Below, piece after piece: positions 1-19,774 of a stretch of 23,879 bases of DNA; the first letter of the stretch is position 1, and each line of letters opens with the position of its first letter. The stretch comes from a virus. The stretch spans positions 1-23,879 of IMG/VR virus record IMGVR_UViG_3300032087_000763; one strand, 5' to 3'. The translations under genes were made by a program, and so were the position numbers. The notes under the pieces were generated by a model. It did not search any database. It was not told where the DNA came from and was given only the letters and a program-made list of their open reading frames with translations.

Positions 1-1
1 T

Positions 2-301
2 TTACCAAACGCCCATGATTTCGAGCGCCACGCGGTCTCTGTCGAGGCCGCGCACGTCTGTCTCCTTTAACGCGTCGTCAATAGCGCGATAAATGGCGCT
101 CTGACGGTCGGTAAAAAACATAATGTGACCCATACCGATTTTGTAAGGATTGGCGTATCTCATGAGCGCTTGCCAAGCGGCGGCGGCGTCGGTTCCCATG
201 GGCGGGCACTTAGATTTTAGCATTCCCTTTTGTTTGCCGCGCGATACCAGTGCCGCGTCGATGGCGTCAATGCAAATGTCTCTTAGCTCTTTACTTTCCA
301 T
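2..301 (-). CDS. Hypothetical protein, 99 aa, after the terminase and non-coding block
   Basis: I do not recognise this family. The reading frame is complete: ATG at 301, TAA at 2-4. A purine-rich ribosome binding site (AAAGGAAAAGG) lies a few bases upstream, which supports real translation. The protein is soluble-looking, with no membrane segment. It has a helical N-terminal half (residues 1-25), a KSKCPP segment near residue 30 and an acidic/basic C-terminal third (DALKETDVRGLDRDR). It is separated from the terminase gene by about 410 bases of gene-free DNA. It may therefore belong to a different transcription unit, possibly the start of the early region if the genome ends lie nearby. No function is assigned. 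Confidence 0.7.
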   Translation of the reverse strand: MESKELRDICIDAIDAALVSRGKQKGMLKSKCPPMGTDAAAAWQALMRYANPYKIGMGHIMFFTDRQSAIYRAIDDALKETDVRGLDRDRVALEIMGVW

Positions 302-471
302 TGTACCTTTTCCTTTCGTTTGGTTTCGATGTTCAAGAAATACAACATTCAGGTTTACTGTACAAGAAAAAATAGTGCCACGGGTTTCGGCTGGTTTCCG
401 CTAGGAATATTCAGCCCGCCCGCCGCCGTCGCCGGACGTTATCACAAGCCGCCGCTCGCCGCCCTTGGTAT

Positions 472-496
472 GCCGTCATGTCTATAGACTGATGGC
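472..496. repeat. Near-perfect inverted repeat, possible operator or hairpin
   Basis: The arms GCCGTCATGTCTA and TAGACTGATGGC pair except for one unpaired T and one G:T wobble. The core GTCTATAGAC is a perfect palindrome with no loop, which fits a protein-binding dyad better than a terminator. No U-run follows on either strand. Confidence 0.45.
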
Positions 497-517
497 CGAC
501 CATCCGTAGTCCGCGCG

Positions 518-561
518 ATTGCTGGGCTTGCGACGCCGCCCGCCCTTAGTGTGCCAGCAAT
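518..561. repeat. 8-base inverted repeat ATTGCTGG / CCAGCAAT with 28-base loop
   Basis: ATTGCTGG at 518-525 is perfectly complementary to CCAGCAAT at 554-561. The intervening 28 bases are very G+C-rich and can fold further. This could be part of a structured RNA or DNA element in the gene-free region; no known family is recognised. Confidence 0.35.
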
Positions 562-677
562 GTGCCACCCGCCGTCGATTGTCAGCGCTGATTGGTCGCC
601 GGACTTTCGATGCCGTGGTCTGCAAATTTTTCGGGGGGCGTCGGGGGGTCGCCGTGTTTGCGGCGGGGGAAGATATG

Positions 678-705
678 TGTATACGAATTGCTGTACAAAA
701 TTCAA
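678..705 (-). promoter_or_regulatory. Sigma-70-like promoter candidate downstream of terminase
   Basis: On the minus strand TTGAAT (700-705) is followed after 16 bases by TATACA (678-683). Each hexamer matches the bacterial consensus at four of six positions. It would read left through the gene-free region into the gene at 2-301. The octamer TTGTACAG between the hexamers recurs near 357-364, closer to that gene. The prediction comes from base pattern only. Confidence 0.3.
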
Positions 706-712
706 TTTGGGT

Positions 713-2566
713 CTAAAGATCGACTCTAGACACCTCAGTCCTTACACCAGCCCGCCTCACGCCACGCTGCCCGACTAACGCACCCCCACGCATGAACTCT
801 ACGAAGTCCTCGATCTCCTCGTCCATACGTGCATCCAGTACAGCCTGAGCCGCTTCATCGACACTCTGGCTCATAGACCGCTGATAGTGAGCCACAGCCC
901 CTGCAAGTGCATCCAGACGGTCGTCATGCCTGAGCGCACCACGGTCTCTAGTAACGTGAGTTAACTGGTACAGCAGGGAGTATCTGTGGTCTTCCGCCCG
1001 TGACTCACGCCGCGCTAGTGTCTCGTCTATGATCAGCCTGTGCTGTGTCATAACGGGCTCCAGCGTGTCTATGATCCGTAGTTCCTTTTGTCCTTTAGCC
1101 CACTCTGACTCTTCGACGGTACAACCACCGGGCCAGATGTCACTGAGGATCGGCTGGAACGCCGCTATCCACATGCCTTGCCCGTAGTTTGGCTCTACTT
1201 CGATTAGATTGACATCGTACTTGCGAGCGTCCATCGCAATGCGTGTCATGGCTTCCGTAGGGTCTCCGGTGAACCCGCCGACATGAAGCACGTACATAAG
1301 ACCATTGAGAGCCGCAACGATGGCCCATGCCGTCTCGTCAGCGCCGCGACCACTGGGGTCAACGAAGAGCATCTTGCTCTCGTATGGTTCCCATTCGCTG
1401 TCGATGAACAGCGGGCGCAGGAAATGGTCACCGGAGAAGCCAAGGTTCGGGATGTCCTTAATCAGGTTCTCTTTGTCATTCTCACGCCCCCACTGGACTG
1501 TCAGGGGAGCCTTGAGGGGACTGAGAGACATCGTGACTAAGTCGAAGGTCTTTAGTGGATATCGCTCTGCATCCGACAAACTGGTGTCCAGCATGTATTG
1601 GAGCGCAAAGGCACTACGTCCTTTGGACTCAATAGCGATTAACTCGTCATCCCCGAAGCGTGTGTCTGTCGATTGTCCGTAAGACAACTCACCGTCTTCG
1701 TATTGCTTTCTGAGATAGTGCGCTAGGATGTTCACTTCCTGACCACTGTTGTTATTCGTCAACAGGTAGTTGCCCAGCTTTTCTACAGACGGATACCGTA
1801 CTGGTATTGTGAAACAGTCAAAGTCCATTTCCTTGACCAACACGTTATAGACACTTTCCTCTGTCTGAGGTGTTCCCAGAAATATGATGTCGCCTTTCCC
1901 GTGTTCAGTCTTGGTGATTGGCACAAAGTCATTCTGTACGATCCTGATGATCCGCTGCCGTGCTTCTTCCGTCAGGCTGTTGCGTTCCACCTCGATGTCG
2001 TCAGCAATCAACAGTGTCGCCCGACTACCTGTGATCTGACCTGTAATACCTCTCGCGGCTACGCTGTAGCTCTGCGACAAACTTGCGTTGCTAACGTCAA
2101 ACTGATCCGCCATGTCGCGACGGGTAGCTCCGTTATCTCGCGGACCTTCCAATAACCACTGCACCAGCGGCATACTCTCCAGTATACCTTTCGTCTGCGC
2201 TACGAACTCTTTCGCCTTGGAGCCGGTAGCAGACACCACCATGATCTTCTCATCTCTTGGGTTTCTCATCAGTCGCCAGATGGCGTACACGCTGGTAATG
2301 TAAGACTTACCCAGAGACCGAAAGCATCTAATGATATCCTCGCGTGGGCGTTCGGTGTCTATCCTCTTTTGTGCAATGTCAGTACTGTCGACACCATGCT
2401 GTAAGCGATGGGCAATCTCGTACTGTGCTGTGGTGGGGTTTGGTAGACCGAGATGCGCCCACGCGAGAAACAGGAAATTTCTAAAGTCTTCAAAAGCGGG
2501 ATGAACGTCCTCTGGCATGTTTGTCTCCCAATGCGGGCGACCGTTTATCTCCAGAGGTTTCAGCAT
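713..2566 (-). CDS. Terminase large subunit (DNA maturase B, T7 gp19-like)
   Basis: ATP-driven motor and nuclease that packages concatemeric DNA into the prohead through the portal. An N-terminal ATPase carries a terminase-type Walker A (FRSLGKSY, Lys at about 87) and a Walker B (TLLIADDIE, about 184-192), followed by FLGTPQTEESVY near 229-240, which fits the coupling motif. The C-terminal RNase H-like nuclease shows the expected acidic residues: LFVDPSGRG (Asp about 403), LIEVEPNYGQ (about 454-463) and HDDRLDAL (Asp about 549 and 552). At 617 aa it is close to T7 gp19 in length. I chose ATG 2566 because AGGTGG lies at proper spacing before it; the GTG at 2572 is in frame but lies inside that site. 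The start overlaps the upstream basic-protein gene by a few bases. It is the last gene before the gene-free region. Confidence 0.95.
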   Translation of the reverse strand: MLKPLEINGRPHWETNMPEDVHPAFEDFRNFLFLAWAHLGLPNPTTAQYEIAHRLQHGVDSTDIAQKRIDTERPREDIIRCFRSLGKSYITSVYAIWRLMRNPRDEKIMVVSATGSKAKEFVAQTKGILESMPLVQWLLEGPRDNGATRRDMADQFDVSNASLSQSYSVAARGITGQITGSRATLLIADDIEVERNSLTEEARQRIIRIVQNDFVPITKTEHGKGDIIFLGTPQTEESVYNVLVKEMDFDCFTIPVRYPSVEKLGNYLLTNNNSGQEVNILAHYLRKQYEDGELSYGQSTDTRFGDDELIAIESKGRSAFALQYMLDTSLSDAERYPLKTFDLVTMSLSPLKAPLTVQWGRENDKENLIKDIPNLGFSGDHFLRPLFIDSEWEPYESKMLFVDPSGRGADETAWAIVAALNGLMYVLHVGGFTGDPTEAMTRIAMDARKYDVNLIEVEPNYGQGMWIAAFQPILSDIWPGGCTVEESEWAKGQKELRIIDTLEPVMTQHRLIIDETLARRESRAEDHRYSLLYQLTHVTRDRGALRHDDRLDALAGAVAHYQRSMSQSVDEAAQAVLDARMDEEIEDFVEFMRGGALVGQRGVRRAGVRTEVSRVDL

Positions 2567-2802
2567 TTCCACCTACGCAGTGCCAAAGCCTTGCGGGTAG
2601 GCTTGCCGTTCTTTGACATCGGTCCTTTAACACCACTCATGCGAGCGCAGAACGACCGTTTACGAGCGCCACCACCGGGCTGTGGTGCTTTCAGTTTACT
2701 TCCGGTTTTGCGGTTGTAGTACGCTCGTCCCTTAGCGGTGAGACCACCTTTCTTGGACTTGTGTTCTTTGCGTAGACTTACAGACTTTTTCTTAGCCGCC
2801 AC
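2560..2802 (-). CDS. Small basic phage protein, 80 aa (DUF6321-like)
   Basis: Very Lys/Arg-rich, with two recognisable blocks: GGLTAKGRAYYNRKTGSKLK (about residues 19-38) and SFCARMSGVKGPM...NGKPTRKALALRRWKC at the C-terminus. From memory these blocks match a small protein carried next to terminase genes in many marine and environmental phages (DUF6321). Its function is unknown; the charge suggests nucleic-acid binding, which is inference. The start is GTG at 2802, overlapping the TAG of the preceding gene (TAGTG) and preceded by AGGAAGAAG as ribosome binding site. Two cysteines are present, in SFCARM and at the last residue. It overlaps the terminase start, so the two are probably translationally coupled. 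Confidence 0.9.
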   Translation of the reverse strand: MAAKKKSVSLRKEHKSKKGGLTAKGRAYYNRKTGSKLKAPQPGGGARKRSFCARMSGVKGPMSKNGKPTRKALALRRWKC

Positions 2803-3297: not shown

Positions 3298-3753
3298 TCA
3301 TCTCTCCTTCATAAACATAAGTAAGACACGCCTGTCTCCGGTATGAGGACGGACGCAATGCTCCTCGTTTGACGAGAAGATCAACAAGTCCAAATAGTGG
3401 ACTAATGCTCTGTGGTCACTTCGGAAGAAAAACTCACCACCGTTAAAACCACTGGGCGGCGTAAGAACTATGCTGGCGCTATAAGCGCACCACGGCATGT
3501 GGTTGTTGTTACCAGTGTCTTTATGCCAGCCGTGTCCATCTTTCTTTGACTCAACACAGCAATACGATGGATGGCTAAAGTCTGCGTCAATGACAGTAGA
3601 AATAATGTCTGTTATATCTGCAATGTCGTCTTCAAAAAAATCACGGGGGCCTAGCTTTGATGCTATGCGTTTAGCTGTAGAGGGCCTTAAGACACTACTG
3701 ATCTTTTGGTGCATTGCATGGACATTCTGATTTACTGCGTCCACACTTCTCAC
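3298..3753 (-). CDS. 2-oxoglutarate/Fe(II)-dependent oxygenase, prolyl-4-hydroxylase type
   Basis: The sequence shows the double-stranded beta-helix signature of the 2OG-Fe(II) oxygenase superfamily: the HxD metal motif in GWHKDTG (His77, Asp79), a GGEFFF strand, then LLIFSSNEEHCVRPHTGDRR with the distal metal His132 and the 2-oxoglutarate-binding Arg141. Such enzymes oxidise a protein, nucleic acid or small-molecule substrate using O2 and 2-oxoglutarate; the substrate cannot be told from sequence. At about 150 aa it is a minimal catalytic domain. The start is uncertain: GTG at 3753 gives 151 aa and overlaps the Cys-knuckle gene by 59 bases; ATG at 3714 gives 138 aa and a 20-base overlap. Neither has a clear Shine-Dalgarno site. 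It lies between the lysis and packaging genes. Confidence 0.88.
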   Translation of the reverse strand: MRSVDAVNQNVHAMHQKISSVLRPSTAKRIASKLGPRDFFEDDIADITDIISTVIDADFSHPSYCCVESKKDGHGWHKDTGNNNHMPWCAYSASIVLTPPSGFNGGEFFFRSDHRALVHYLDLLIFSSNEEHCVRPHTGDRRVLLMFMKER

Positions 3754-3802: not shown

Positions 3803-3944
3803 TTTTGTCCTCCAATTTATCGAGACGGTTTTCCAGTTTATCCATCTTATCGAATGTATAAGCATTCGACATAATGGCTGGAATGACGAGATGCACACAC
3901 CCGGAAATAAACAAACAGCTTATTAAGCAAACGACTGTTTTCAT
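3789..3944 (-). CDS. 51-aa lipoprotein, candidate outer-membrane spanin (Rz1-like)
   Basis: Translation from ATG 3944 gives MKTVVCLISCLFISGC and then a 36-residue mature part. The first 16 residues are a textbook lipoprotein signal: a Lys after Met, a hydrophobic core, and a lipobox ISGC with Cys16 as the lipidated residue. The mature part ends in a short coiled coil (FDKMDKLENRLDKLEDK). The ATG overlaps the holin stop codon (ATGA), so it should be translated right after the holin. Position in the lysis block, size and lipidation suit an o-spanin that would bridge to an inner-membrane partner and disrupt the outer membrane. However, Rz1 proteins are usually proline-rich and this one is not, so the spanin role is a proposal. 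Confidence 0.78.
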   Translation of the reverse strand: MKTVVCLISCLFISGCVHLVIPAIMSNAYTFDKMDKLENRLDKLEDKNDAK

Positions 3945-4357
3945 TCTTTAAGGTTCTTGGCTGTTTGGCGCTTGTCGTAACTACGCGCACCGGAATACCC
4001 AAGATAACCAGCGCCGAAGAGCGCCCAGAGGCTGTCAGGAATAGCAGTCAAAAGGTCTTTGATGTTCACCGCTGCCATTGCGACATGCTCAGGAAACCAA
4101 ATGCCAATAATACCGCCAACAAAGCATAATATAATGACAGCATACATGACGTAAAGAAACGAAGGTCTTGCCCTCGATGTCCAACCGTCAGCCGATTTAG
4201 CTTCGGCAACAATAGCCGACATTTGTATTTCGTATCTTTTAAGATCGAGGTTAACAAGTTTAGCCTTGGCGTTAGCTTTTTCTTCTTCTGTTTCAAACAG
4301 ATTATCGATAAGCTCGCCACCTAGCTTGCCAAGTATTGGCCCCAGCACTCCAATCAT
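3941..4357 (-). CDS. Holin, GTA three-TM type
   Basis: A 138-aa membrane protein. The N-terminal part is amphipathic (GVLGPILGKLGGELIDNLF), followed by a charged helix (about 22-50). A SADGWTSRARPSFLY segment (about 55-69) leads into a hydrophobic stretch (70-90) and a second weaker one (about 105-122). An EA.S...W..RARP segment before the TM region is characteristic of the holin family found in gene transfer agents and many alphaproteobacterial phages (PF11351, from memory). Holins open the inner membrane at the end of infection so that murein hydrolases reach the cell wall. The gene overlaps its neighbours by ATGA junctions on both sides, with AAAGGA as ribosome binding site, in a compact lysis block. 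Confidence 0.82.
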   Translation of the reverse strand: MIGVLGPILGKLGGELIDNLFETEEEKANAKAKLVNLDLKRYEIQMSAIVAEAKSADGWTSRARPSFLYVMYAVIILCFVGGIIGIWFPEHVAMAAVNIKDLLTAIPDSLWALFGAGYLGYSGARSYDKRQTAKNLKE

Positions 4358-8612: not shown

Positions 8613-11600
8613 CTAATCTCCTGCTATTTTTTCAGATACTTGTTTAAGGATTTGGAAAGGCGCGAGTTTAAGCGCCGTCTTTTTGACGCCTTCCATGTCT
8701 CCATAGACTGCGTCAGTGCCAAGGCTGCTAAGGTTATAAATGAGGTTGCCGGACGGACCAGCGAGTAAAGACATCACGTTAGCTGATTGTGAGTATCGCG
8801 AAGGTCTTTCCCCAGAACCAAGATAGTACGAAGCAGTCCTGTAAAGAGCCGCTGATGGAACGGTGAGATACATCAAATACCCTGATCGATCTAAAATATC
8901 GTATGCCCACGCGCTGGGACTTCTGTCTTTTATCGTTCCGTCTCGGAGTAAGTCTTTGCTTGCAACAACACCGCTGCCGAGCCCAGCAGCAAACGCCATC
9001 GATAAAACAGCTTCCATGTCACCGTATGTCATCGGGTTGCCGCGCTGCAACGCGGGAGCGACAAAACGGTTCACAGAAACAAACCCGTACGTCTGAAACT
9101 GAAGAATTGTTTTACCCATCGATGTAGACATCAGCAGTGGGGTGTCACCAATACCGGGGGTCATTACCGCTCGATTGGCAGTCCTACGCAGCGCGGTCAA
9201 AACATCTTGATACGCAAGATTTCCAGCGTCACCTTCGTCTAACCAGCGATGCATATCGAGTTCAAAGAGACCGTCAATATTTTGCGGTTCATGTTTTGCC
9301 ATCATGCGGGCAATACGACCGGCTTGTTCAGAGCCAATCCCGATAGACGCTAGTTTACTGATTTCCAACTGCGCCTTTCTGGAACCGGCAGAAGCCTGTC
9401 GGAGTAGGTCTGGATATTGTCTTACAAGTCCAACAAGGTTGTGTTGCATCTCCAACATAGCCAGAGCTTTGAGACGAGTGTTCCACCATGTCATCCCAGA
9501 TATAACACTTGCTGTGTTTGAAAGACCTTGGACAGCGCGAGTGACTGTTGATGTCGTGTTGTGTGTTATCGAACCAAGTTCACCAATACCGGCCATGTCT
9601 TTCAGATCACCGACATCGTTAATTTTCAGTGTTCGGCTATTATGAAGCACACGCTCAAGAGCGACACTGAGGCGTCGTATCTCATCGTTCTTCATACCCT
9701 TCATGGTTCTGCTAAGAGCAGACATATGCTTAACACTGAGAGTATGAAAACCGGTCGTAAGGGCTACAGACGCTAGGTCAGTCAAGGATGACAAGAGGAA
9801 GCCTGAGCCATACATGACGTAGTTCCAAGCTCTCAACGTCCCTGTACCCCAGTGTAAAAACCCATCAGGGTCTTGCGGGAGCCCGTAGCGGCCTAACGCT
9901 CTGTTCCACACACCTTCGGCACGGCTGAGAGCCCCGCGCTTTTCTCTTTCAAGCTGGCGGATGTAGCGAGGTGTCAGGTTACGCTGGCGAGCATTGGACA
10001 ATAAACTGTCATACTCGTCCTCTATGCGTTGCAGCATTTCGTCTGGAGCCTCTGATCCAAACTTTTTACGCAATGCTATACGACTAGCTACATCATCGAA
10101 GCCGCTGTACATGACGCCGTAGAGGTCGTCGCGTAGTAGTCCAAGTTCGATAGCTTCTCTACGCTCCTCGTTTGTCAGTTCGATCTTGCGGCTTTTAGCT
10201 CGACCGCTTTCAAAAACCTCTGTGTCCAGGATGCCACGCGGCATCTGCGTCTGTTTGCTTAGGCGTTTTACAAGCTCTTCCACGTACAAATGGACAGGCA
10301 GCTTTGCTTCAGTCCGTCTTGCAGACTTCTTTGCAGATTTTAACTTCCTTTTTGCTTTGTTGGATTCCTTGGCGGCTTCTTTTTTTATCTGCCGTAGAGC
10401 AACGCGGGCTTGCCGTCGTGCAACCACAGCTTGCCTCGCGGCTTGTACCATTGCGTCCAACTTTTCTGTCTTCGGATCGAGGCGGGCAAGGCGTCTGTCG
10501 AGCTTGTTAATTTCACGGTTAATGTTGTTCTGACGCTCTTTCAGTTTACTGAGAGCGCGGCTGTACACAGGCTTTTGGCGGGCATCGAGGACAGCAGCAT
10601 TAAGTGCGTCAGGGCCGATACGATCAATCTCCGCATCAGCCTCAGTGAGCATCTTTCGCGCTTCGTCAATATCCGCATACGGCGCTTGTTCTTTCTCCAG
10701 TGACTTGAGTAAGTCTTCAGTCTCCTCGACTTGGCTTGTGCGCTCGCTTCTGTACTTACGCTGCCACCTACCAGTGTCATGGTACTGGTTCATGCGAACA
10801 CGTTGCTCTTCCTCAAGGCGTCTAAGCTCAGTGTCTATTGCTCGCTTTTCCAGCGCTAGTTTTTCGCGGTTAGCTTGCGTTCTTTCGCGTTCTGCCACAC
10901 GCTTTTCCAGTATGGCCTTAGCTTCAGCGACACTGGATTTTCGGTAGTCTGTCTCAGAGGTCCGTAGGTCTCGACCGGCTAACACGGCTTCGCGTCTTGC
11001 TGTCTGATAGGCTGCTTCAGCTTGTTCGACAGCTAACTCCGCTTCCATGATTGAGCGGTCATACGTGTTGCCAGACCAGTCTTCTAAAATTTCAACACGG
11101 CGGTCTAGGCCACTTTCTGGCGTGTAAGTCACAGCCTCGTCGCCGTCGCCTTTTATTGTGACTGCTTCTTTTCCGAGCTTGTCAAACTCGTCCAGCGTCA
11201 TTCCAAAATTAGCATCAAGCCACTCGGCGTCAGGATCATTAATCAGCTTTTTAATAAAGAAAGCAGTTGCGGCTTTAGGGTTTGCCGCAATGCCTTTGGG
11301 ATTCCAAAGTTGAGCCAAACCATATTTGCGGCCCATCCGTTGGCTCTCTTTAATCATACCGCTCTCAACCATCAGGTCTTCCATGACTTGGTTGGCGTTA
11401 TGTATAAGTTCGGCTTGCTCTTTAGCCTTAGACAAAATCAACTCTGCACCTTCGTCACCGAAGCGAGACTTTAGATTGTCTAGCGTACGATCATCGATGT
11501 CGTCGTGCAGCGCACGATATGTAATGTCTTGCCACTCAAAATCTTCAAAGTGTGTGCCGGTAGGTTGCTCTACATCTCTACCAAATGTCTGTTTAAAGTA

Positions 11601-12773
11601 ACGACCTACGCCTCTCGCAGCATCACCAAGGTCTTGAACGACACGCGATTGGACACCGCCAGTTAACTTTTCCAGTTCCATGCGGAGCGCGTAATAGTTG
11701 TCCACGGAAGAGACAAACGTGTCTTCGAACAAGCTCATTATAGTTGCTTTTTCGTCTTCGAAAGATCGTGCGGCTTGGCCTGTAGCCATTTGATCCGTAA
11801 GTAAACCAGCCGTATCCATCATCTTGACGGCAAAATCCCGCGCTGATGTTGCTTTCGCCGCCATTAGATAACCGACAGGGGTGACCTTCGCTAGTGTTGT
11901 AGCACCGGCTGATTTAACGAGTTGTCCAGCTTCGACAGCTTTAGCACCTACGCTGCTGTCGGCAGCAAATTTGACTGAAGATCTGCCAGCTTTGACCGCT
12001 GGCTCCACAATCGGATTATCCTTTAACCGACTGCCAACTGTTCCAATTGCAACTCTTAACTTGTTGTCTGGCTTAAAAACGTAGTTAGCGGATTTCGGGT
12101 GCAGTAGATGGCCCGGTTGTCTTGCGCCGACAAACAGCCCAATGCCGCCACCTAGTGTCGCGCCAGCGGCTATGTTGAACAGGCTTTCTTGCTGGGTTCG
12201 CAGGTCTTGCTGCATGTGCAGAATTGCTTCGTGTGAGCCTGTAATCGTACCGCCCGCTAAAGCATATTTAGCGCCTTTGGCTAATGTCTTGCCTTTAGAT
12301 AGCCAGCCGCCGACAGGAACAAGAGTTGCAACATCAAGCAATGACAGGCCCATTCCAGCAATCAGACCTAGTGCGCTGTCGGATTCCGCTAGTCTCTTTC
12401 TGTTCTCTGCTTCCTCTCTCAGACGACCCAGACGATCTTGGAATTGATCCTCGCTGACAACATCGTGGAATAATCCAGTGCGGACCCACGGCATTGCGTC
12501 TTCCATCGTGTCCGCGTTTTCCAAATGATACCGATACGGGTTAAAGGTCTTGTCATACGTGTAATTGCCCTGCACCCGGTCTGGAGAGAAGCCGTACGTC
12601 AGGGCGCTGCCAATCACCGTTTCCTGCTGGTACATCAATCCAGCAGTTTCAAAGAAACCAGCAGGGTCTGGAGTGGTCGCTGTGTATAGAGGCGCGTTTT
12701 GAACACGGTACATTTCTGCCGCTGCGACATTGTCAGCGGTGCCAGCGAAGTCACGCTCTAAGACAATTGTCAT
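8613..12773 (-). CDS. Internal virion protein D, ejection protein (T7 gp16-like)
   Basis: At 1386 aa this is the largest gene here, similar in size to T7 gp16 (1318 aa) and in the same place. In T7 this protein is ejected and spans the inner membrane, forming part of the DNA-transfer channel. Visible parts are: an N-terminal region with two hydrophobic segments (about 138-158 and 196-214); a strongly charged helical region with long heptad stretches (about 575-825, rich in Lys, Arg, Glu); and a C-terminal part (about 930-1386) with hydrophobic helices and MTPGIGDTPLLMSTSMGKT...LQFQTYGF, resembling gp16 C-termini. No SLT transglycosylase motif is seen at the N-terminus; a lysozyme is encoded just upstream instead, overlapping by ATGA. 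Confidence 0.85.
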   Translation of the reverse strand: MTIVLERDFAGTADNVAAAEMYRVQNAPLYTATTPDPAGFFETAGLMYQQETVIGSALTYGFSPDRVQGNYTYDKTFNPYRYHLENADTMEDAMPWVRTGLFHDVVSEDQFQDRLGRLREEAENRKRLAESDSALGLIAGMGLSLLDVATLVPVGGWLSKGKTLAKGAKYALAGGTITGSHEAILHMQQDLRTQQESLFNIAAGATLGGGIGLFVGARQPGHLLHPKSANYVFKPDNKLRVAIGTVGSRLKDNPIVEPAVKAGRSSVKFAADSSVGAKAVEAGQLVKSAGATTLAKVTPVGYLMAAKATSARDFAVKMMDTAGLLTDQMATGQAARSFEDEKATIMSLFEDTFVSSVDNYYALRMELEKLTGGVQSRVVQDLGDAARGVGRYFKQTFGRDVEQPTGTHFEDFEWQDITYRALHDDIDDRTLDNLKSRFGDEGAELILSKAKEQAELIHNANQVMEDLMVESGMIKESQRMGRKYGLAQLWNPKGIAANPKAATAFFIKKLINDPDAEWLDANFGMTLDEFDKLGKEAVTIKGDGDEAVTYTPESGLDRRVEILEDWSGNTYDRSIMEAELAVEQAEAAYQTARREAVLAGRDLRTSETDYRKSSVAEAKAILEKRVAERERTQANREKLALEKRAIDTELRRLEEEQRVRMNQYHDTGRWQRKYRSERTSQVEETEDLLKSLEKEQAPYADIDEARKMLTEADAEIDRIGPDALNAAVLDARQKPVYSRALSKLKERQNNINREINKLDRRLARLDPKTEKLDAMVQAARQAVVARRQARVALRQIKKEAAKESNKAKRKLKSAKKSARRTEAKLPVHLYVEELVKRLSKQTQMPRGILDTEVFESGRAKSRKIELTNEERREAIELGLLRDDLYGVMYSGFDDVASRIALRKKFGSEAPDEMLQRIEDEYDSLLSNARQRNLTPRYIRQLEREKRGALSRAEGVWNRALGRYGLPQDPDGFLHWGTGTLRAWNYVMYGSGFLLSSLTDLASVALTTGFHTLSVKHMSALSRTMKGMKNDEIRRLSVALERVLHNSRTLKINDVGDLKDMAGIGELGSITHNTTSTVTRAVQGLSNTASVISGMTWWNTRLKALAMLEMQHNLVGLVRQYPDLLRQASAGSRKAQLEISKLASIGIGSEQAGRIARMMAKHEPQNIDGLFELDMHRWLDEGDAGNLAYQDVLTALRRTANRAVMTPGIGDTPLLMSTSMGKTILQFQTYGFVSVNRFVAPALQRGNPMTYGDMEAVLSMAFAAGLGSGVVASKDLLRDGTIKDRSPSAWAYDILDRSGYLMYLTVPSAALYRTASYYLGSGERPSRYSQSANVMSLLAGPSGNLIYNLSSLGTDAVYGDMEGVKKTALKLAPFQILKQVSEKIAGD

Positions 12774-14242
12774 TTAGCGGCGACCTTAAATCGCAGATTG
12801 GAGACAGGGCCGAGATCGATATCGAACTCTGCGCCTTCGTTTTCTTTCGAGCCCCATAGTCCACCAACGCGACGGATGATACCGTAGCCACCCGTGTTAG
12901 CATCACCAGAGTAATTAAGAAGATTCTTTATTTTGTCTTCGTTGGTTGGGTTTTGTTTTTGCAACTTTTCAGCGTCGTTGAAATTGTATCGATCAGTGAC
13001 GATAAGATGACCCCTGTCGTCAATTCTGTAAGTAAATTGTCCAAGGGTAGTTTTAATTGCGTACTCAGGATCAGCCAAAAGCGTTTTCACGATTCCTGAG
13101 CTACCGCCGAAGGATACATCAGACTGACCGGTCTCGTAATCTGCGTACTCAACAAATCCAGACTGACGACCGCTTTTTTTAATCTTATTGACTACCAAAG
13201 TAAGAAGGGCTTCTTTTTCTGAGTCAGAGAAATAGTCCTCGTTTCTCGTTTGATCTAAGTCCTTTTCCAACAAGTCCGCTGTTAAAGCACGAACTTGAGC
13301 GGGAATAATACCGGACAGCCAAGAACCCACTTTTTCTGGTTCTTTGTATTCTGGTTTTATTCGAGGCCGAGGCGCTAAACTTCTGCCTTGTTCTATTAAC
13401 TGGGCTGATGATTTTAAGTCAGACGCTTCAGCAGCACTGACGCCAAATATTGATGCGATAGACCAGCCGCTGTCACTAGCATCGTCAGGGTCCATGCCTG
13501 TGAACATCTCAGCTTCAAGATTGCGACGGTTTTGGATGCCTTTCGATTTGCGTAGGTTGCTCTTGTATTTAATCTCATCAAATGCAGCTTTCTTGTCGCC
13601 AGCTTTAATATGTCTGGTCAGGTTAGGCCCAATCAGACTAGGCGAGTTGTAGGCGAGGGAGACTAACGCAAGACGCTCGTAACCCTTAAGATCGACATCA
13701 GAGAACTGAGAGCTTATTAGCTTTTCGGCTGATCCAGCAGCGGCTTCAAAAAGAATACGTCCGTCGCTGTTTGATAGGACAGACTTACCGTCTCTCAAAT
13801 TGTCGTAGTCTTCGTCGGTTTTTCCCAAAGCATTCTTGTATAACTGTCGATTTGACGGCTCATCTAAATTGAAACCATAGCCAATCGTGCGAAATCCTCG
13901 CGTATCTTTATAGACTTTGTTTCTCCAGCCTTCGTGATCACTGATGAACTCGAAACGTCTTTGCAGATAATTCCGTCGATCAGTATCAGCCGGATCATCA
14001 AATAATGCAGGATTAGCCTTCATAATTGTCCTCGACATGCTATCAAACCAGCTACGGTTTTCTTCGGGCTCTAGGTTAAAATTTGTCACGCCAGATGTTG
14101 GGCTGATAAGTCCAGCCGAGCGGAGTTGGTCGCGGACACTATCGTGGACGGCGGCGTCATATTCTTCTGCTGTCCTCGCAGACATCACGGCAGACATGTC
14201 TAACGGAAAACTCTCGTTTGCTTGCGCTAAGGACATTGTCAT
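12770..14242 (-). CDS. Virion-associated GH24 lysozyme (muramidase), 490 aa
   Basis: Residues about 95-250 form a T4-lysozyme-type (GH24) domain. The catalytic Glu104 is in SDHEGWRNKVYKD, Asp113 follows in YKDTRG, and Thr119 is in RTIGYG, the usual E-D-T arrangement. NSDGRILFE and the closing GIQNRRNLEAEMF also fit the family. An N-terminal helical part (1-90) and a 240-residue C-terminal part without a recognised domain surround it. The protein lies between the gp15-like and gp16-like genes, with TGATG and ATGA overlaps, so it is probably made with them and packed in the virion to open the peptidoglycan during DNA entry. A late-lysis role cannot be excluded. GGAGG upstream of the ATG supports the start. 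Confidence 0.85.
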   Translation of the reverse strand: MTMSLAQANESFPLDMSAVMSARTAEEYDAAVHDSVRDQLRSAGLISPTSGVTNFNLEPEENRSWFDSMSRTIMKANPALFDDPADTDRRNYLQRRFEFISDHEGWRNKVYKDTRGFRTIGYGFNLDEPSNRQLYKNALGKTDEDYDNLRDGKSVLSNSDGRILFEAAAGSAEKLISSQFSDVDLKGYERLALVSLAYNSPSLIGPNLTRHIKAGDKKAAFDEIKYKSNLRKSKGIQNRRNLEAEMFTGMDPDDASDSGWSIASIFGVSAAEASDLKSSAQLIEQGRSLAPRPRIKPEYKEPEKVGSWLSGIIPAQVRALTADLLEKDLDQTRNEDYFSDSEKEALLTLVVNKIKKSGRQSGFVEYADYETGQSDVSFGGSSGIVKTLLADPEYAIKTTLGQFTYRIDDRGHLIVTDRYNFNDAEKLQKQNPTNEDKIKNLLNYSGDANTGGYGIIRRVGGLWGSKENEGAEFDIDLGPVSNLRFKVAAK

Positions 14243-16863
14243 CAGTACCCACCTCCCGTAATTATTCTACGGCTTGCGGGTATATTTGGGTCCAACAATC
14301 TTAACTGGTAATCACTGTACTGCTTACGAGCTACCATTGGGCCTTCTTCCTTCAACAGTTTCTGGTACTCCTCAGAATTTATGTAATTCTCGTCAATGTT
14401 CTTATAGTACGGAACGACCGCGAGATTATAAGCAACGACATCGCCACTTAGGTTTCGGATTGGCACCAAGCCAATTGATGGATGAAGAAACGATTTAACA
14501 AGCTCCGCGTCTGCTGCCGGATCGCCGGTCAGTTTTACATCCTGATTTTCAAAACCTTCAAACATGAAGCTAGGTAGAAAATCTCGAATGCCGCTAAAGC
14601 GTTCACCTTGTTGGTCATAAATGCGTTCAGTTTTATAGGTCGTCCCAACGCCGAGACGCAGAGGCTCTTTGGTGCTGTCTTCAAAAATCAACAAACCGTT
14701 GTTCTTAGCTACACCGGGGTCGGGCCGGACGTATAAGTTATCGGAATCTAGTTCAACGCCTGATGCGCTTGTTAACCCAAGAAGACCGTTCTCGATGTCC
14801 TCAACAGCCTCTTGCACGTTGTCGACCGTGCTTTCCGGCGTACCAGACGGGTTCATTGTGTAGTTTGATAAAGGCGGGATTTCTGTGCCGTCTACGGTCT
14901 TTGTAGATGTCCGCTGAAAATCAACGAGGTTATCTGGGTGGACAATAATTTGACCCTTGAAGTGTGTAACAAGCTCAGAACGTAGCCCTTCAAGCGTCAT
15001 TTGCTTTCCGGCTTTTCTGCTATTGGCAACAAGAATTTGTGCCTGATCCATGACGGCTTTTTCGAGGCTAGGACTAAGTCTGAGGTTTTCTCCAAAAAAC
15101 CACGGATCACTTTTACCCGCTAAATCTTCAGCGAGTGTGTCCGTCGTCCATGTCAGACCATCTCCAAGTACGTTCTTTTGAAAATTTGCTTTGTCAGTTT
15201 CTTCACGGTTTTTATCCGGTCTTACACCGCCATTCATAAGAGCCGATAGATCGTCGGGAGCCGTCACCATCGCTTCAATCATATTTGGGTCATTCATGTC
15301 TATTCGCTTACCAGCGATGACACCCTGATAAACAGCGGCTGCTGTCGGTTGGTCTTTAATGAGTGACTGAAAGATACGGTTGTTTGGATCGAACGCTTTG
15401 ATGGCTGACACTGTAAGCGTTTGCACATTAGGATCAGGGTTATTCAGACCTTCAATCAGATAGTTAACTGCGCTTTTGGGTATAAAGTTTTTTTGTTGAT
15501 GTATGTTTCGGACCATAGTTCCAAAAGCATTCACATCAGTCATACTTTTCGTAGTCTGAAAATCAGCGAGTGAGATTAACTTTGGAACCTCTTTGTCCAG
15601 TTGTTCGTTTGTCAGGTTCGGCTGTCCCGGCACCAGCTTACGACCAGATGCAATATCAGACGCCGCTCGTAAATTTAGAATTTCAGTTTTGATTTGATTC
15701 TGCTCTTTCCGTAGATCGGTCATAAATTTAGAAATGTTTGCGCCACCTACGCCTTCCGTGTTGTTTAGTTCTTGCGACTGTAAGTCGAGCCGTGCAAGCC
15801 GCTCTGCTTTTAATTTCATGTTAGCTGGTGTGCTGGTGTCCATGTTTTGTATGTCAAGCAGAGTGCTACTGTGCTTTGTGAGAACCTGTGTCCCACCCAT
15901 CGTCACATGCTCACGATATTTTTTGTTGAGAGCTTGCAATTGTATTTCCATTTCGCGTGGAAATTTTTCATACAAGGATTGCGATATTTGATTTCCGTCA
16001 TCGTCATAAAACGGTTGAGTTAAGAATGACGAAAGTGACTTAGCCGTCGTAGCTTTTTTTGATGCGACAGAAATCCAAGTGCCAATGACAGCCGATGCCG
16101 CTTGTCCTTCTGTAAGATTAGGCGCAGCGCTCTTCACTTGGCTGATGGAATCCAAGTAATTATTTTCTGTTATATCGGCAGAGTTTTCGGCATAGTTTCC
16201 AACTTGTGTGCCGACAGCTTCCGCCAGTTTTTCTTTAGCTTTTTTCGCTAGTTCCAAATTGTTCTGAAGTCTTAGCTCATCGATTTTGGTGTTCCACTGT
16301 CCAACCATCGCTGCGTCGTGAAACGGGTTACCGGTGCCGCCTGTAAAATTTTGGTTGAAGTATTGTGTGGAAAAGTCATCGAAGGTGTTTAGATCAAAAC
16401 CGGGTTGTGCGATTGTCGTTTGAAAATCGTCAATCATGCGTTGTCCGCTTAGTGTTCCTATTGCGTGACTATAAGTCCGTGTAAAGGACTTACGTTCGGA
16501 CACATCTATAAAGTCACCGTTTTGCAGTTGAACCTGTGACGGCATACTCGATATTGCAGTCTCCGCATTCTGTTGGAATGCTTCACTGGCCTTGACCGTA
16601 GCAAGTTTTTTTAACTCTTCATTCTGGTCTGCAATGTTTAGCGCTTCGATCTTACCAAGCGTCGACATTGTGCTTTGAACAGCGTTTCCTATTGTTCCAA
16701 AAAAATTGCTGAAAGCAGCCGTCATGTCACCGGCTCTAGGATCAATACCGCGCATTGCTCCGACAAATTGCGGAACTTGGTGAGGGACCGGACCAGCCGC
16801 ACGAACACGAGGTGTGTTTGATGTAGCCAGATTTACCCGCGATCTTTGAAACCTTTCAGACAT
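14242..16863 (-). CDS. Internal virion protein C, ejection protein (T7 gp15-like)
   Basis: An 873-aa protein in the gp15 position, somewhat longer than T7 gp15 (747 aa). It is mostly helical and soluble-looking: no convincing membrane segment, several predicted coils (for example EIQLQALNKKYREHV near residue 300), and repeated short Gln/Asn/Leu-rich helices. gp15 forms the periplasmic tunnel with gp16 in T7 after ejection. Assignment rests on gene order, size and composition, since sequence similarity in this family is weak. It begins after a gap of a few bases from the gp14-like gene, with AAAAGG as ribosome binding site, and ends in TGATG overlap with the lysozyme gene. Confidence 0.75.
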   Translation of the reverse strand: MSERFQRSRVNLATSNTPRVRAAGPVPHQVPQFVGAMRGIDPRAGDMTAAFSNFFGTIGNAVQSTMSTLGKIEALNIADQNEELKKLATVKASEAFQQNAETAISSMPSQVQLQNGDFIDVSERKSFTRTYSHAIGTLSGQRMIDDFQTTIAQPGFDLNTFDDFSTQYFNQNFTGGTGNPFHDAAMVGQWNTKIDELRLQNNLELAKKAKEKLAEAVGTQVGNYAENSADITENNYLDSISQVKSAAPNLTEGQAASAVIGTWISVASKKATTAKSLSSFLTQPFYDDDGNQISQSLYEKFPREMEIQLQALNKKYREHVTMGGTQVLTKHSSTLLDIQNMDTSTPANMKLKAERLARLDLQSQELNNTEGVGGANISKFMTDLRKEQNQIKTEILNLRAASDIASGRKLVPGQPNLTNEQLDKEVPKLISLADFQTTKSMTDVNAFGTMVRNIHQQKNFIPKSAVNYLIEGLNNPDPNVQTLTVSAIKAFDPNNRIFQSLIKDQPTAAAVYQGVIAGKRIDMNDPNMIEAMVTAPDDLSALMNGGVRPDKNREETDKANFQKNVLGDGLTWTTDTLAEDLAGKSDPWFFGENLRLSPSLEKAVMDQAQILVANSRKAGKQMTLEGLRSELVTHFKGQIIVHPDNLVDFQRTSTKTVDGTEIPPLSNYTMNPSGTPESTVDNVQEAVEDIENGLLGLTSASGVELDSDNLYVRPDPGVAKNNGLLIFEDSTKEPLRLGVGTTYKTERIYDQQGERFSGIRDFLPSFMFEGFENQDVKLTGDPAADAELVKSFLHPSIGLVPIRNLSGDVVAYNLAVVPYYKNIDENYINSEEYQKLLKEEGPMVARKQYSDYQLRLLDPNIPASRRIITGGGY

Positions 16864-16868
16864 GTTTT

Positions 16869-17450
16869 TTACCTTTTAGCCAAAGCATCGAGAGTGTTTT
16901 TCTGGTTCACAGCGCTTGTGGTTCCGGACACAATCGTGCCTATGCCTTGAAGAACGGCAGCATTCGAAGCGGCATTGGCTCGCATCAGCGTGTTTTGAGC
17001 ATTATTTTTTGCTATCGTTACAGCGTTTATGTAGCCCTGAGACGCGGCTGCTTTTGCTGCCCGTCCAGCATCAACTTGTTTGTCAACATTTTCTGTGATG
17101 CGGACAAGGTCAGCGCTGTTTTGATAGTGGCTTTCAAAGAAGAGATTGCCTAAAGAGCCTTCTGACAATGCAGTCTCAGCGGCCCGCAAAGAGCCTAGCT
17201 GTTCATTGGCTTGTCTGATCAAATCTGATTTTTCCTCGATCTCTTGATTTTGAACTTCGGCAACCTGTCTGTTAGCTTCGCTGTACTCAGCTTCGGCCCG
17301 CGCTTTTGCAGCGGCATACTCTGCTTCCGCTTGCTGTCTAGCGATTGCAGCTTGTTGCTCTGCTTGTTGTTGAGCCATCATCATCTGCATCCCACCCATA
17401 GCAACAGATGTGGCTATAGAGACAGCCATCATCGTCGTAGGTTCACACAT
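16869..17450 (-). CDS. Internal virion protein B, ejection protein (T7 gp14-like)
   Basis: A 193-aa protein starting MCEPTTMMAVSIATSVAMG, a hydrophobic, Met/Ala-rich N-terminus typical of gp14-like proteins (often MCEP or MCDP). It is followed by a long Ala/Gln/Glu helix (AIARQQAEAEYAAAKARAEA) and a second Ala-rich helical part. T7 gp14 (196 aa) inserts in the outer membrane and forms the first section of the DNA-ejection channel. I start at ATG 17450, which overlaps the tail tube B stop (TGATG). The in-frame GTG one codon earlier is less likely given the family N-terminus. Confidence 0.82.
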   Translation of the reverse strand: MCEPTTMMAVSIATSVAMGGMQMMMAQQQAEQQAAIARQQAEAEYAAAKARAEAEYSEANRQVAEVQNQEIEEKSDLIRQANEQLGSLRAAETALSEGSLGNLFFESHYQNSADLVRITENVDKQVDAGRAAKAAASQGYINAVTIAKNNAQNTLMRANAASNAAVLQGIGTIVSGTTSAVNQKNTLDALAKR

Positions 17451-19774
17451 CACTCAGCCCTCGTAAGTTCGTTGAAGAAGCCTCGATAATCTATAGAAGT
17501 TATAGTCATGGGCTTCTCCGTATCATTGGTAATTTTAATTACTGATGTTGAGGCGTCAGTTTGCAGAGGGGCTGCAAAGTGACCGCTGTCGACAATCGCT
17601 ACAGTTCCGACAAGGTTGTCTCCAAAGCCCACACGGCGACCGTTGAAAGTAAAGACCTGCTCATCGCGAAAACTTGGCGTGACCTTAATCCTAAAGAAAC
17701 CAGTGTTTTGAAAATTTACTTGCAGCCGTCGTAACTGAAGACGGCCTGATGTAATTGTTTTCGAGGTATTTGTCGCTTCTCTGACAAAGAGCTTCGATAG
17801 CTGAACCTCTTGGTCAAACGGCAGTCCGATGACAGCCTGACCAGCACTGAAGTCACCATTTGCCGTAATTGTTGTTGTCGTCGGATATGCCACAGTCAGA
17901 CGTTCTCCAACTTTTCCTGTCGGAAAATCTGTCGACAAAATAACAGCAGCTTTGCTGTTGTGAAGATACGGCGTTGTCCATGTCGTCACATCAGTCGTGC
18001 TGTTGTAGCTGCCCGTTACTTTTGTTTGCTGGTCAAGACAGATTTGATAAGGATGCTTGTCATCACTTAGCTCATACCGAAGTTTGGTTTTTTCCAGAAA
18101 CGTCTGTGTTCCCCTTGTGACGACCGCATAAAGGTCACCTTCGATCACTTTGATCCAATGTATGTATACAGTTGAGTCGCCATAGTCCCACATGTGCCAT
18201 GCAGACTGGGCTTTTTGGTCACCGTCGACATACATCTTGTATATATAAATTCTGGACCGGTCCTTATCAGACAGCAGCAACAACATGTCGTTGGTTGGAT
18301 CACCGGTCATCATGACTACTGGAGCCGGAACATAGCCTAACGCATGAAGCGTTACGTCAGACGCCAAGTTCGACAGTGTGTTGTCGTCAAATTTGTACTC
18401 GTAGATACAAGCGTCTCTTCCGCTCTTCGCAGCAAAATATAAAGTGCTGCCTAAATTTATAGGACGGCAGAGTGTCTCAGTGAGATATGTGGTCGATAGG
18501 TCGAGCGTTGCATTTTCTGGGATAAGCCGCTCGTCACCTGCGACCTCAAATTGGTTTTTGTCGCTCGTAATGAATAACGCTTTTCTGAACGACAACGCAT
18601 GTTTTAGAAGGTTAACTTCCGAAGCACTTGCGGTTAGGCCAAAGCTGTCGCTGTCTAGGCTTTGGGTGCTGAAATCCGGCCAAAATGTAAAGTACTTACC
18701 AGATTGACTGAATGTCACTGTTTCGCCCGCGATGAATGCTAACCTATTTCGATGGTAGATAACCGACTGAACCTTTTGTCCGACAAAATCTGGGTTAGGG
18801 GCCGTCGTGGTGTCTCCCGCTATACGAGCGTCATACGTGCCTTTTTCGAAAACAAACGTGCCATTTGACTGGCGGGTGAGAAAATGAGGCATCGTTGTGT
18901 CGTCAAAATCATTGTCGGCATAGGGGTCAGCAGCCTCTACCCATCCGCCATCCGCTAGTGAAAATTTAGCCCAATACCCTAGCTCGTTGCCGTCGATGGT
19001 AGCACCCACGCGGATGAGATAACCGTCAGGAGCAGTCGGCGGAAGGTGGGTTCGTTTGGCGACGTTGTCGCGCATGGTGATAGGACCGTAGATGTCGTCA
19101 GAACCTGTATGCGCGATGGTAAAATCACTGTCCGCGCTATCCTCGATGACAATCGTCAAGTCGTCGCGAGTAGCTGAAAAGCCAGTAGGAAGAGAAATGT
19201 TGGATATAATGTTAGACGCTAGTTCGGTCGCGCTGATAGCGCTGCCGCTGTAAGTCCAAACGCTTGACCCATCAATTGAGATTGAATAGCTGGTCGAATT
19301 ATTCGTTGTTCGACAATTGATAAGAGCCTGAGTAGGGCTCTCGACATACGAATTAGCAGCCATAGCGACGGTGATGGAGTTGTTCGCAATTATTGTCCTG
19401 TCTGCAATTGTGACAGCAGAAAAACTTTCGTTTGGTGTTGCTGCTGTTAGATAGGTTTTGCCGTCTGGATAGGTCACGGTGACTTCGACACCATCGAGGT
19501 CAAAAACTTTTAGGTCACCGTTTTTTATGACAACAATGTATTTTTCCGTAGCATCTCTTGCGTACGAATAAATAAATGGCTTGTCAGAAGATCCGGTAAT
19601 GAAAGTGTTTTGAGCTATATGCCGAGAACTTGGACGGCTTTCAAAACCACCGGTTACTACAGACATCAAAACATTCGTAGCTTCTTGAACTTGGCCGGGC
19701 AACCGCACTGAGTCCGGCTGTCTGCTGACTCCTTGATACAGCGTTTTAATGCTTTGCTCGATCAAACGTCCCAT
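17450..19774 (-). CDS. Tail tubular protein B, nozzle (T7 gp12-like)
   Basis: A 774-aa protein, close to T7 gp12 (794 aa), in the right place and order. The N-terminus GRLIEQSIKTLYQGVSRQPD matches the strongly conserved start of this family (IxxLxxGVSQQP). Later blocks also fit: VTGGFESRPSSRHIA (about 36-50), VQSVIYHRNRLAFIAGETV (about 334-352) and FALxxSxGKYFTFWPDF-type segments (about 360-370). The protein forms the distal nozzle of the short tail. TGATG overlap with tail tube A and AGGACG before the ATG confirm the start. Confidence 0.93.
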   Translation of the reverse strand: MGRLIEQSIKTLYQGVSRQPDSVRLPGQVQEATNVLMSVVTGGFESRPSSRHIAQNTFITGSSDKPFIYSYARDATEKYIVVIKNGDLKVFDLDGVEVTVTYPDGKTYLTAATPNESFSAVTIADRTIIANNSITVAMAANSYVESPTQALINCRTTNNSTSYSISIDGSSVWTYSGSAISATELASNIISNISLPTGFSATRDDLTIVIEDSADSDFTIAHTGSDDIYGPITMRDNVAKRTHLPPTAPDGYLIRVGATIDGNELGYWAKFSLADGGWVEAADPYADNDFDDTTMPHFLTRQSNGTFVFEKGTYDARIAGDTTTAPNPDFVGQKVQSVIYHRNRLAFIAGETVTFSQSGKYFTFWPDFSTQSLDSDSFGLTASASEVNLLKHALSFRKALFITSDKNQFEVAGDERLIPENATLDLSTTYLTETLCRPINLGSTLYFAAKSGRDACIYEYKFDDNTLSNLASDVTLHALGYVPAPVVMMTGDPTNDMLLLLSDKDRSRIYIYKMYVDGDQKAQSAWHMWDYGDSTVYIHWIKVIEGDLYAVVTRGTQTFLEKTKLRYELSDDKHPYQICLDQQTKVTGSYNSTTDVTTWTTPYLHNSKAAVILSTDFPTGKVGERLTVAYPTTTTITANGDFSAGQAVIGLPFDQEVQLSKLFVREATNTSKTITSGRLQLRRLQVNFQNTGFFRIKVTPSFRDEQVFTFNGRRVGFGDNLVGTVAIVDSGHFAAPLQTDASTSVIKITNDTEKPMTITSIDYRGFFNELTRAE

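Follow-up and report, generated by a model that had tools for sequence, protein, structure and literature searches.

Gene content of the window

The window, a 23,879-base IMG/VR virus record, is a linear fragment of 24 kb whose source was treated in this analysis as a marine phage. Its minus strand encodes a T7-like virion module comprising portal, scaffold, capsid, tube, nozzle, gp14-like, gp15-position, 490-aa, gp16-like and fibre-type proteins, a 3TM holin and a terminase. The nozzle protein (17450..19774; Pfam Phage_nozzle, 2e-187) was used to gather relatives, and the gp14-like internal virion protein lies at 16869..17453 (Pfam T7_gp14, 1.2e-8). The gp15-position ejection protein (873 aa; 14242..16863), assigned by position alone, contained no detectable hydrolase domain. 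Between it and the gp16-like ejection protein (1386 aa; 8613..12773) lies the 490-aa gene (12770..14242), which overlaps the upstream ORF by 1 nt and the downstream ORF by 4 nt (ATGA). This position, referred to here as the slot, recurs in related contigs. The 3TM holin (3941..4357; PF11351, 2.2e-19; phrog_3427 holin, 6e-28) has no recognised endolysin gene adjoining it, and the terminase large subunit (713..2572; phrog_38, 1e-103) is followed by a stretch (1..712) at which an M15 endolysin would be expected.

A small ORF among the lysis and packaging genes (3298-3753) resembled PKHD/2OG-Fe(II) dioxygenases (NCBIfam 8e-4, below the cut-off), and similar ORFs were present in the relatives L084 and L087. 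A possible acetyltransferase gene, recognised by reading only, lies between the nozzle and gp14-like genes of the relative L003 (5882-6334), and cobaviruses carry a GNAT gene at the matching position; the window lacks this gene despite 94% slot-protein identity to L003.

A predicted muramidase in the ejection operon

Pfam searches of the 490-aa protein revealed a Phage_lysozyme (GH24, PF00959) domain at residues 102-243 (13514..13939, minus strand; 7.1e-12, 46.2 bits against a curated cut-off of 22.3), and PF00959 also matched at the DNA level (1.2e-14). Residues E104 (13931-13933), D113 (13904-13906) and T119 (13886-13888) have the spacing of the T4 lysozyme triad E11-D20-T26 and were invariant in an alignment of nine sequences with pairwise domain identity down to 67%. 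A chance GH24 match was ruled out by the E value of 7e-12 together with the invariant triad. These analyses confirmed what the first-pass annotation had described, a stand-alone 490-aa GH24 protein with an E-D-T triad and overlaps of 1 nt and 4 nt. An N-terminal leader (residues 1-90; 13973..14242), common to slot proteins with intact and with broken triads, contains the invariant residues R37, G44, S47-T49, V52 and T53. No hydrophobic segment above threshold was identified, pointing to a soluble protein with no transmembrane segment, and the window thus encodes both a predicted soluble muralytic enzyme and a holin (3941-4357), the combination looked for in an endolysin. An AlphaFold2 model of the whole protein, built from five sequences, reached a pLDDT of 45 and was discarded. 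We conclude that the 490-aa protein is a predicted soluble GH24 muramidase encoded within the ejection-protein operon, in which leader, lysozyme fold and C-terminal module would together make up a conserved ejection-set component.

The earlier statement that the gp16-like protein is devoid of an SLT domain also held. No SLT domain (PF01464) was detected in the window or in 14 related records, while the T7 gp16 control was found at 5.8e-33, and Amidase_2 was absent from the window and the related records searched, with T7 as positive control. Profile searches of the 490-aa and gp16-like proteins therefore placed GH24 in the former and SLT in neither, and an SLT domain concealed in the gp15- or gp16-like protein was excluded by the same search. 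The 1386-aa ORF is called gp16-like because it matched phrog_342 (T7 gp16 type, 6.7e-58); this alignment starts only at profile position 211, and an hhalign comparison of the gp16-like family with T7 gp16 was not significant (probability 2.5%). A long, charged, helical, coiled-coil-like stretch occupies the middle of this protein (residues about 570-830). The label 'gp15-like' given earlier to the 873-aa ORF stands as a description of its position after a T7_gp14 family member (1.2e-8) and has no sequence support as a statement of homology, as sequence and profile searches matched neither T7 gp15 nor anything beyond its own close relatives.

Known phages offer several points of comparison. Virion lysozymes replace SLT in SP6 gp36, K1-5 gp38 and phiKMV gp36 (PMC5380687), and domain swapping between gp15 and gp16 has been described (PMC8954989). 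In these three phages, compared with the window by function and gene position, an ejection protein encoded ahead of the gp16 homologue likewise has lysozyme activity associated with it (PMC5380687, PMC8954989), but the lysozyme is there a domain of the gp15-position protein; in the window no hydrolase was matched by the 873-aa ORF and the enzyme is a separate ORF. In T7, too, an ejection gene supplies the peptidoglycan-cutting activity, but the SLT domain responsible belongs to another enzyme family and is fused to the N-terminus of gp16, where the gp16-like protein of the window has none. A pesticin-domain gene is present in the ejection region of pelagiphages (PMC5628999). The corresponding 'pesticin domain protein' of Bylgja (gp11) and HTVC309P (gp36) shares a lysozyme fold (PF16754) and the location between gp15-position and gp16-like genes, but the Bylgja protein additionally includes part of gp16 (phrog_342 176-400) and showed no C-terminal module. 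Enzyme swapping between ejection proteins is thus already known from SP6 and phiKMV gp36 and the pelagiphage pesticin protein, and is not new.

Slot contents across relatives

A slot protein was found in all relatives in which the slot was covered, including those with an M15 endolysin, and its contents varied between GH24 plus module, GH24 plus peptidase, a GH104-like enzyme and a peptidase. Window and L004 DNA are 83-95% identical through the end of the gp15-position gene and the first 250 or so codons of the slot gene; identity then falls to 39-62% in the remainder of that gene and returns to 95% where the gp16-like gene begins. This profile indicates a clean exchange of the C-terminal module, with a breakpoint at about residue 265-275. 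L042 has an NlpC/P60-like domain in place of the module (Pfam 0.0016, below the cut-off; phrog_1259, 3e-10).

In a sister clade the slot carries other enzymes behind a leader of its own. The slot proteins of L058 and L079 were classed as GH104-like from the motif 'STPMGRYQ', a Pfam search having given no match; they also matched a phrog_90 endolysin (2e-11) and were 46% identical to SIO1 gp24. L072 encodes another lysozyme-like protein at this position, and L061 a protein with a peptidase-like domain. A gene for a small membrane protein separates the slot gene from gp16 in L061 (11001-11441), L079 (13519-13959) and L072 (17083-17526). The L061 product belongs to phrog_38283, a family of unknown function, and neither Pfam nor PHROGs gave a holin name for this gene, which could be a candidate holin. 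In L029, a stand-alone GH73 glucosaminidase gene (11369-11968; Pfam 1e-26) directly precedes a large ejection-type protein, placing another enzyme class at a comparable position.

A C-terminal module shared with lysis cassettes

The C-terminal part of the 490-aa protein had earlier been described as lacking a recognised fold. Its sequence was recognised: residues 310-479 (12806..13315, minus strand) matched the end of phrog_7348 'endolysin' (2e-17; profile positions 2389-2551 of 2564), and residues 269-486 matched HTVC115P gp40. A model of the module alone (pLDDT 74, pTM 0.63) gave no PDB fold, the top values being E 1.3 in Foldseek and Z 2.6 in VIA-align. The only significant BFVD matches of this model were phage proteins of no known function.

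This module of about 170 aa was found elsewhere fused to domains of SLT, GH24, GH104-like or peptidoglycan-binding type, and also encoded alone. A 1248-aa gp15-position protein (L020) combines it with a lysozyme-like part that has an E-D-S motif and a weak profile match only (phrog_28234, 1.5e-4). Hhalign detected no homology between this fused protein and the gp15-position family, so that the fusion is 'gp15' by position only. In L021 the module occurs in a protein with an SLT domain (Pfam 1.8e-10), in L028 and L029 it is joined to PG_binding_1, and in L026/L027 it ends a gp15-position protein with no recognised enzyme. Five further loci (L030-L034; L032 is truncated at the contig edge) encode the module alone. 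In L034 the neighbours of this gene are a GH24 endolysin (Pfam 1.4e-37) on one side and an Rz-like gene on the other. The L030 copy is flanked by a GH19-type gene and an Rz-like gene, with one further membrane-protein ORF in the interval, and that of L033 comes after a portal gene. No module relatives were found in genome_contigs, and a tblastn search of phages with the module-only protein of L034 gave no match.

The endolysins of cobaviruses span several enzyme classes (PMC6775973). In the cultured cobavirus ICBM1, the hypothetical gene flanked by endolysin and spanin is a homologue of the module (hhalign 97%, E 2e-11), and the SIO1 arrangement gp24-gp23-gp22 looks similar to this endolysin/module/spanin order. 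The cobaviruses share with the window a homologue of the module, but there it and the endolysin are separate genes followed by a spanin, and the pair comes after the large internal virion protein and not between gp15- and gp16-position genes. Together with the contexts above, this indicates that the module accompanies cell-wall enzymes whether these belong to lysis or to ejection gene sets.

The first-pass annotation had proposed that the C-terminus attaches the enzyme to the ejection core. Such virion docking concerns the module only and is compatible with any reading of the whole protein; the module at the end of the L026/L027 gp15-position protein, which has no recognised enzyme, would fit it. 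The idea is nevertheless disfavoured, and we consider it quite improbable, because the module is mobile: it is cleanly exchanged in L004, replaced by a peptidase-like domain in L042, joined to peptidoglycan-binding domains in L028/L029 and present in lysis cassettes as a gene of its own.

Broken triads in relatives with an M15 endolysin

A 44-kb record, L044, has a slot protein whose GH24 triad is lost (R-D-V) and an M15 endolysin (phrog_465, 7.5e-56) that begins 35 nt behind the terminase. A terminase scan gave 48 loci, of which 36 were analysed. M15 was identified behind the terminase in 16 of the 36, making 17 terminase-bearing records with L044, and was absent from 15 records including the window, each with at least 0.7 kb read past the terminase. 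The window, with its intact triad, showed no M15 in the 712 nt after the terminase or elsewhere. The slot was covered in nine M15 records, and all nine encode a GH24-like slot protein in which the aspartate is lost and the threonine is histidine. With the L044, L068 (M15 gene cut by the contig end) and L070 records added, the triad was broken and the GH24 fold kept in 12/12 informative M15 records.

In the terminase tree, M15 and non-M15 records form two sister clades; the contrast follows this one split and therefore counts as a single event, which weighs against a dual role. The window is the one contig that combines an intact slot with an M15-less terminase. For several other contigs with an intact slot, the same metagenome contains a terminase contig lacking M15 (e.g. 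3300020428, 3300031773), a pairing that is only suggestive.

Conversion of engineered T4 lysozyme to a transglycosidase is the topic, by title, of two papers cited in PMC9213883 (Kuroki 1999, Hiromoto 2017). In the slot GH24 regions of L140-L148, the D20 equivalent is lost, the T26 equivalent is histidine and the glutamate is kept in most, while fold residues stay well conserved. As some broken-triad proteins thus retain the glutamate alongside a threonine-to-histidine change, 'broken' need not mean inactive. The engineered T4 lysozyme mutant of 1999 was reportedly T26H; in the nine relatives the natural change is accompanied by a missing D20 equivalent, which makes activity unpredictable from the T26H case.

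Entry, lysis or both

The first-pass annotation had proposed for the locus a different enzyme class and a split architecture serving the same entry step as in T7. Enzyme class and split architecture were borne out. The same entry step was not, as the triad is broken in all M15-bearing relatives examined; entry there seems not to need muramidase activity, and where the triad is intact the enzyme may act as the endolysin in lysis. The relatives pull in opposite directions. Retention of the slot protein despite a separate endolysin points to a function in the ejection set other than lysis, and retention of the active site where no M15 endolysin was seen argues for work in lysis; a dual role explains both.

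We therefore favour, at a probability of about 0.45, a muramidase of the ejection operon that would also act as endolysin. The slot protein would probably be packaged and released with the gp15 and gp16 proteins, with possible activity in entry, and its active site would probably double as the lysis endolysin, let out by the 3TM holin. This reading builds on the operon position, the intact triad, the absence of SLT, modular swapping and the broken triads beside another endolysin. Occurrence of the module in the lysozyme-like gp15-position fusion of L020 and in an SLT protein (L021) would be consistent with it, and its lysis half may be supported by the module genes between endolysin and spanin (ICBM1) and between GH24 endolysin and Rz-like gene (L034), and by a window holin with no neighbouring endolysin. 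On the other side, about 8 kb separates the gene of the slot enzyme from that of the holin, and another endolysin may lie in the part missing from the 24-kb fragment. A stricter version, in which a single protein is packaged as an ejection component and is also the phage's only lysis endolysin, while the M15 lineages keep a structural pseudo-lysozyme (E, no D, H), is put forward tentatively.

Two single-role explanations were weighed against the dual role. In the first, the protein is packaged and cuts peptidoglycan at DNA entry, like the T7 gp16 SLT domain or SP6/phiKMV gp36, and the endolysin is encoded in the unsequenced part. Operon position and translational overlaps, a gp16-like protein devoid of SLT, the virion lysozymes known in SP6, K1-5 and phiKMV ejection proteins (PMC5380687) and the L020 and L021 fusions all fit, but a virion muramidase seems dispensable in the 12/12 triad-broken M15 relatives, since those searched contained neither SLT nor Amidase_2, and the module is common to lysis cassettes; we regard this explanation as somewhat doubtful. 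In the second, an endolysin gene has been relocated into the ejection operon and its product is not packaged. The M15 contrast, hydrolase-class swapping of the kind typical of endolysins, module genes adjoining endolysin and spanin genes and the sister-clade membrane-protein gene (phrog_38283) after the slot gene agree with relocation. It is unlikely, however, given that a well-kept fold persists in the slot of relatives with their own endolysin and that gp15-position fusions exist (L020, L021). No virion proteomics for the clade was found in the literature.

In a limited literature search we found no description of a conserved slot with swapping enzymes, of the M15 contrast, or of the module common to ejection proteins and lysis cassettes that is now defined. 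Taken together, these data present the murein-hydrolase component of the ejection set as a cassette with interchangeable contents, and recast what looked like an enzyme swap as a question that can be tested: can one podophage gene provide murein cutting at both entry and exit?
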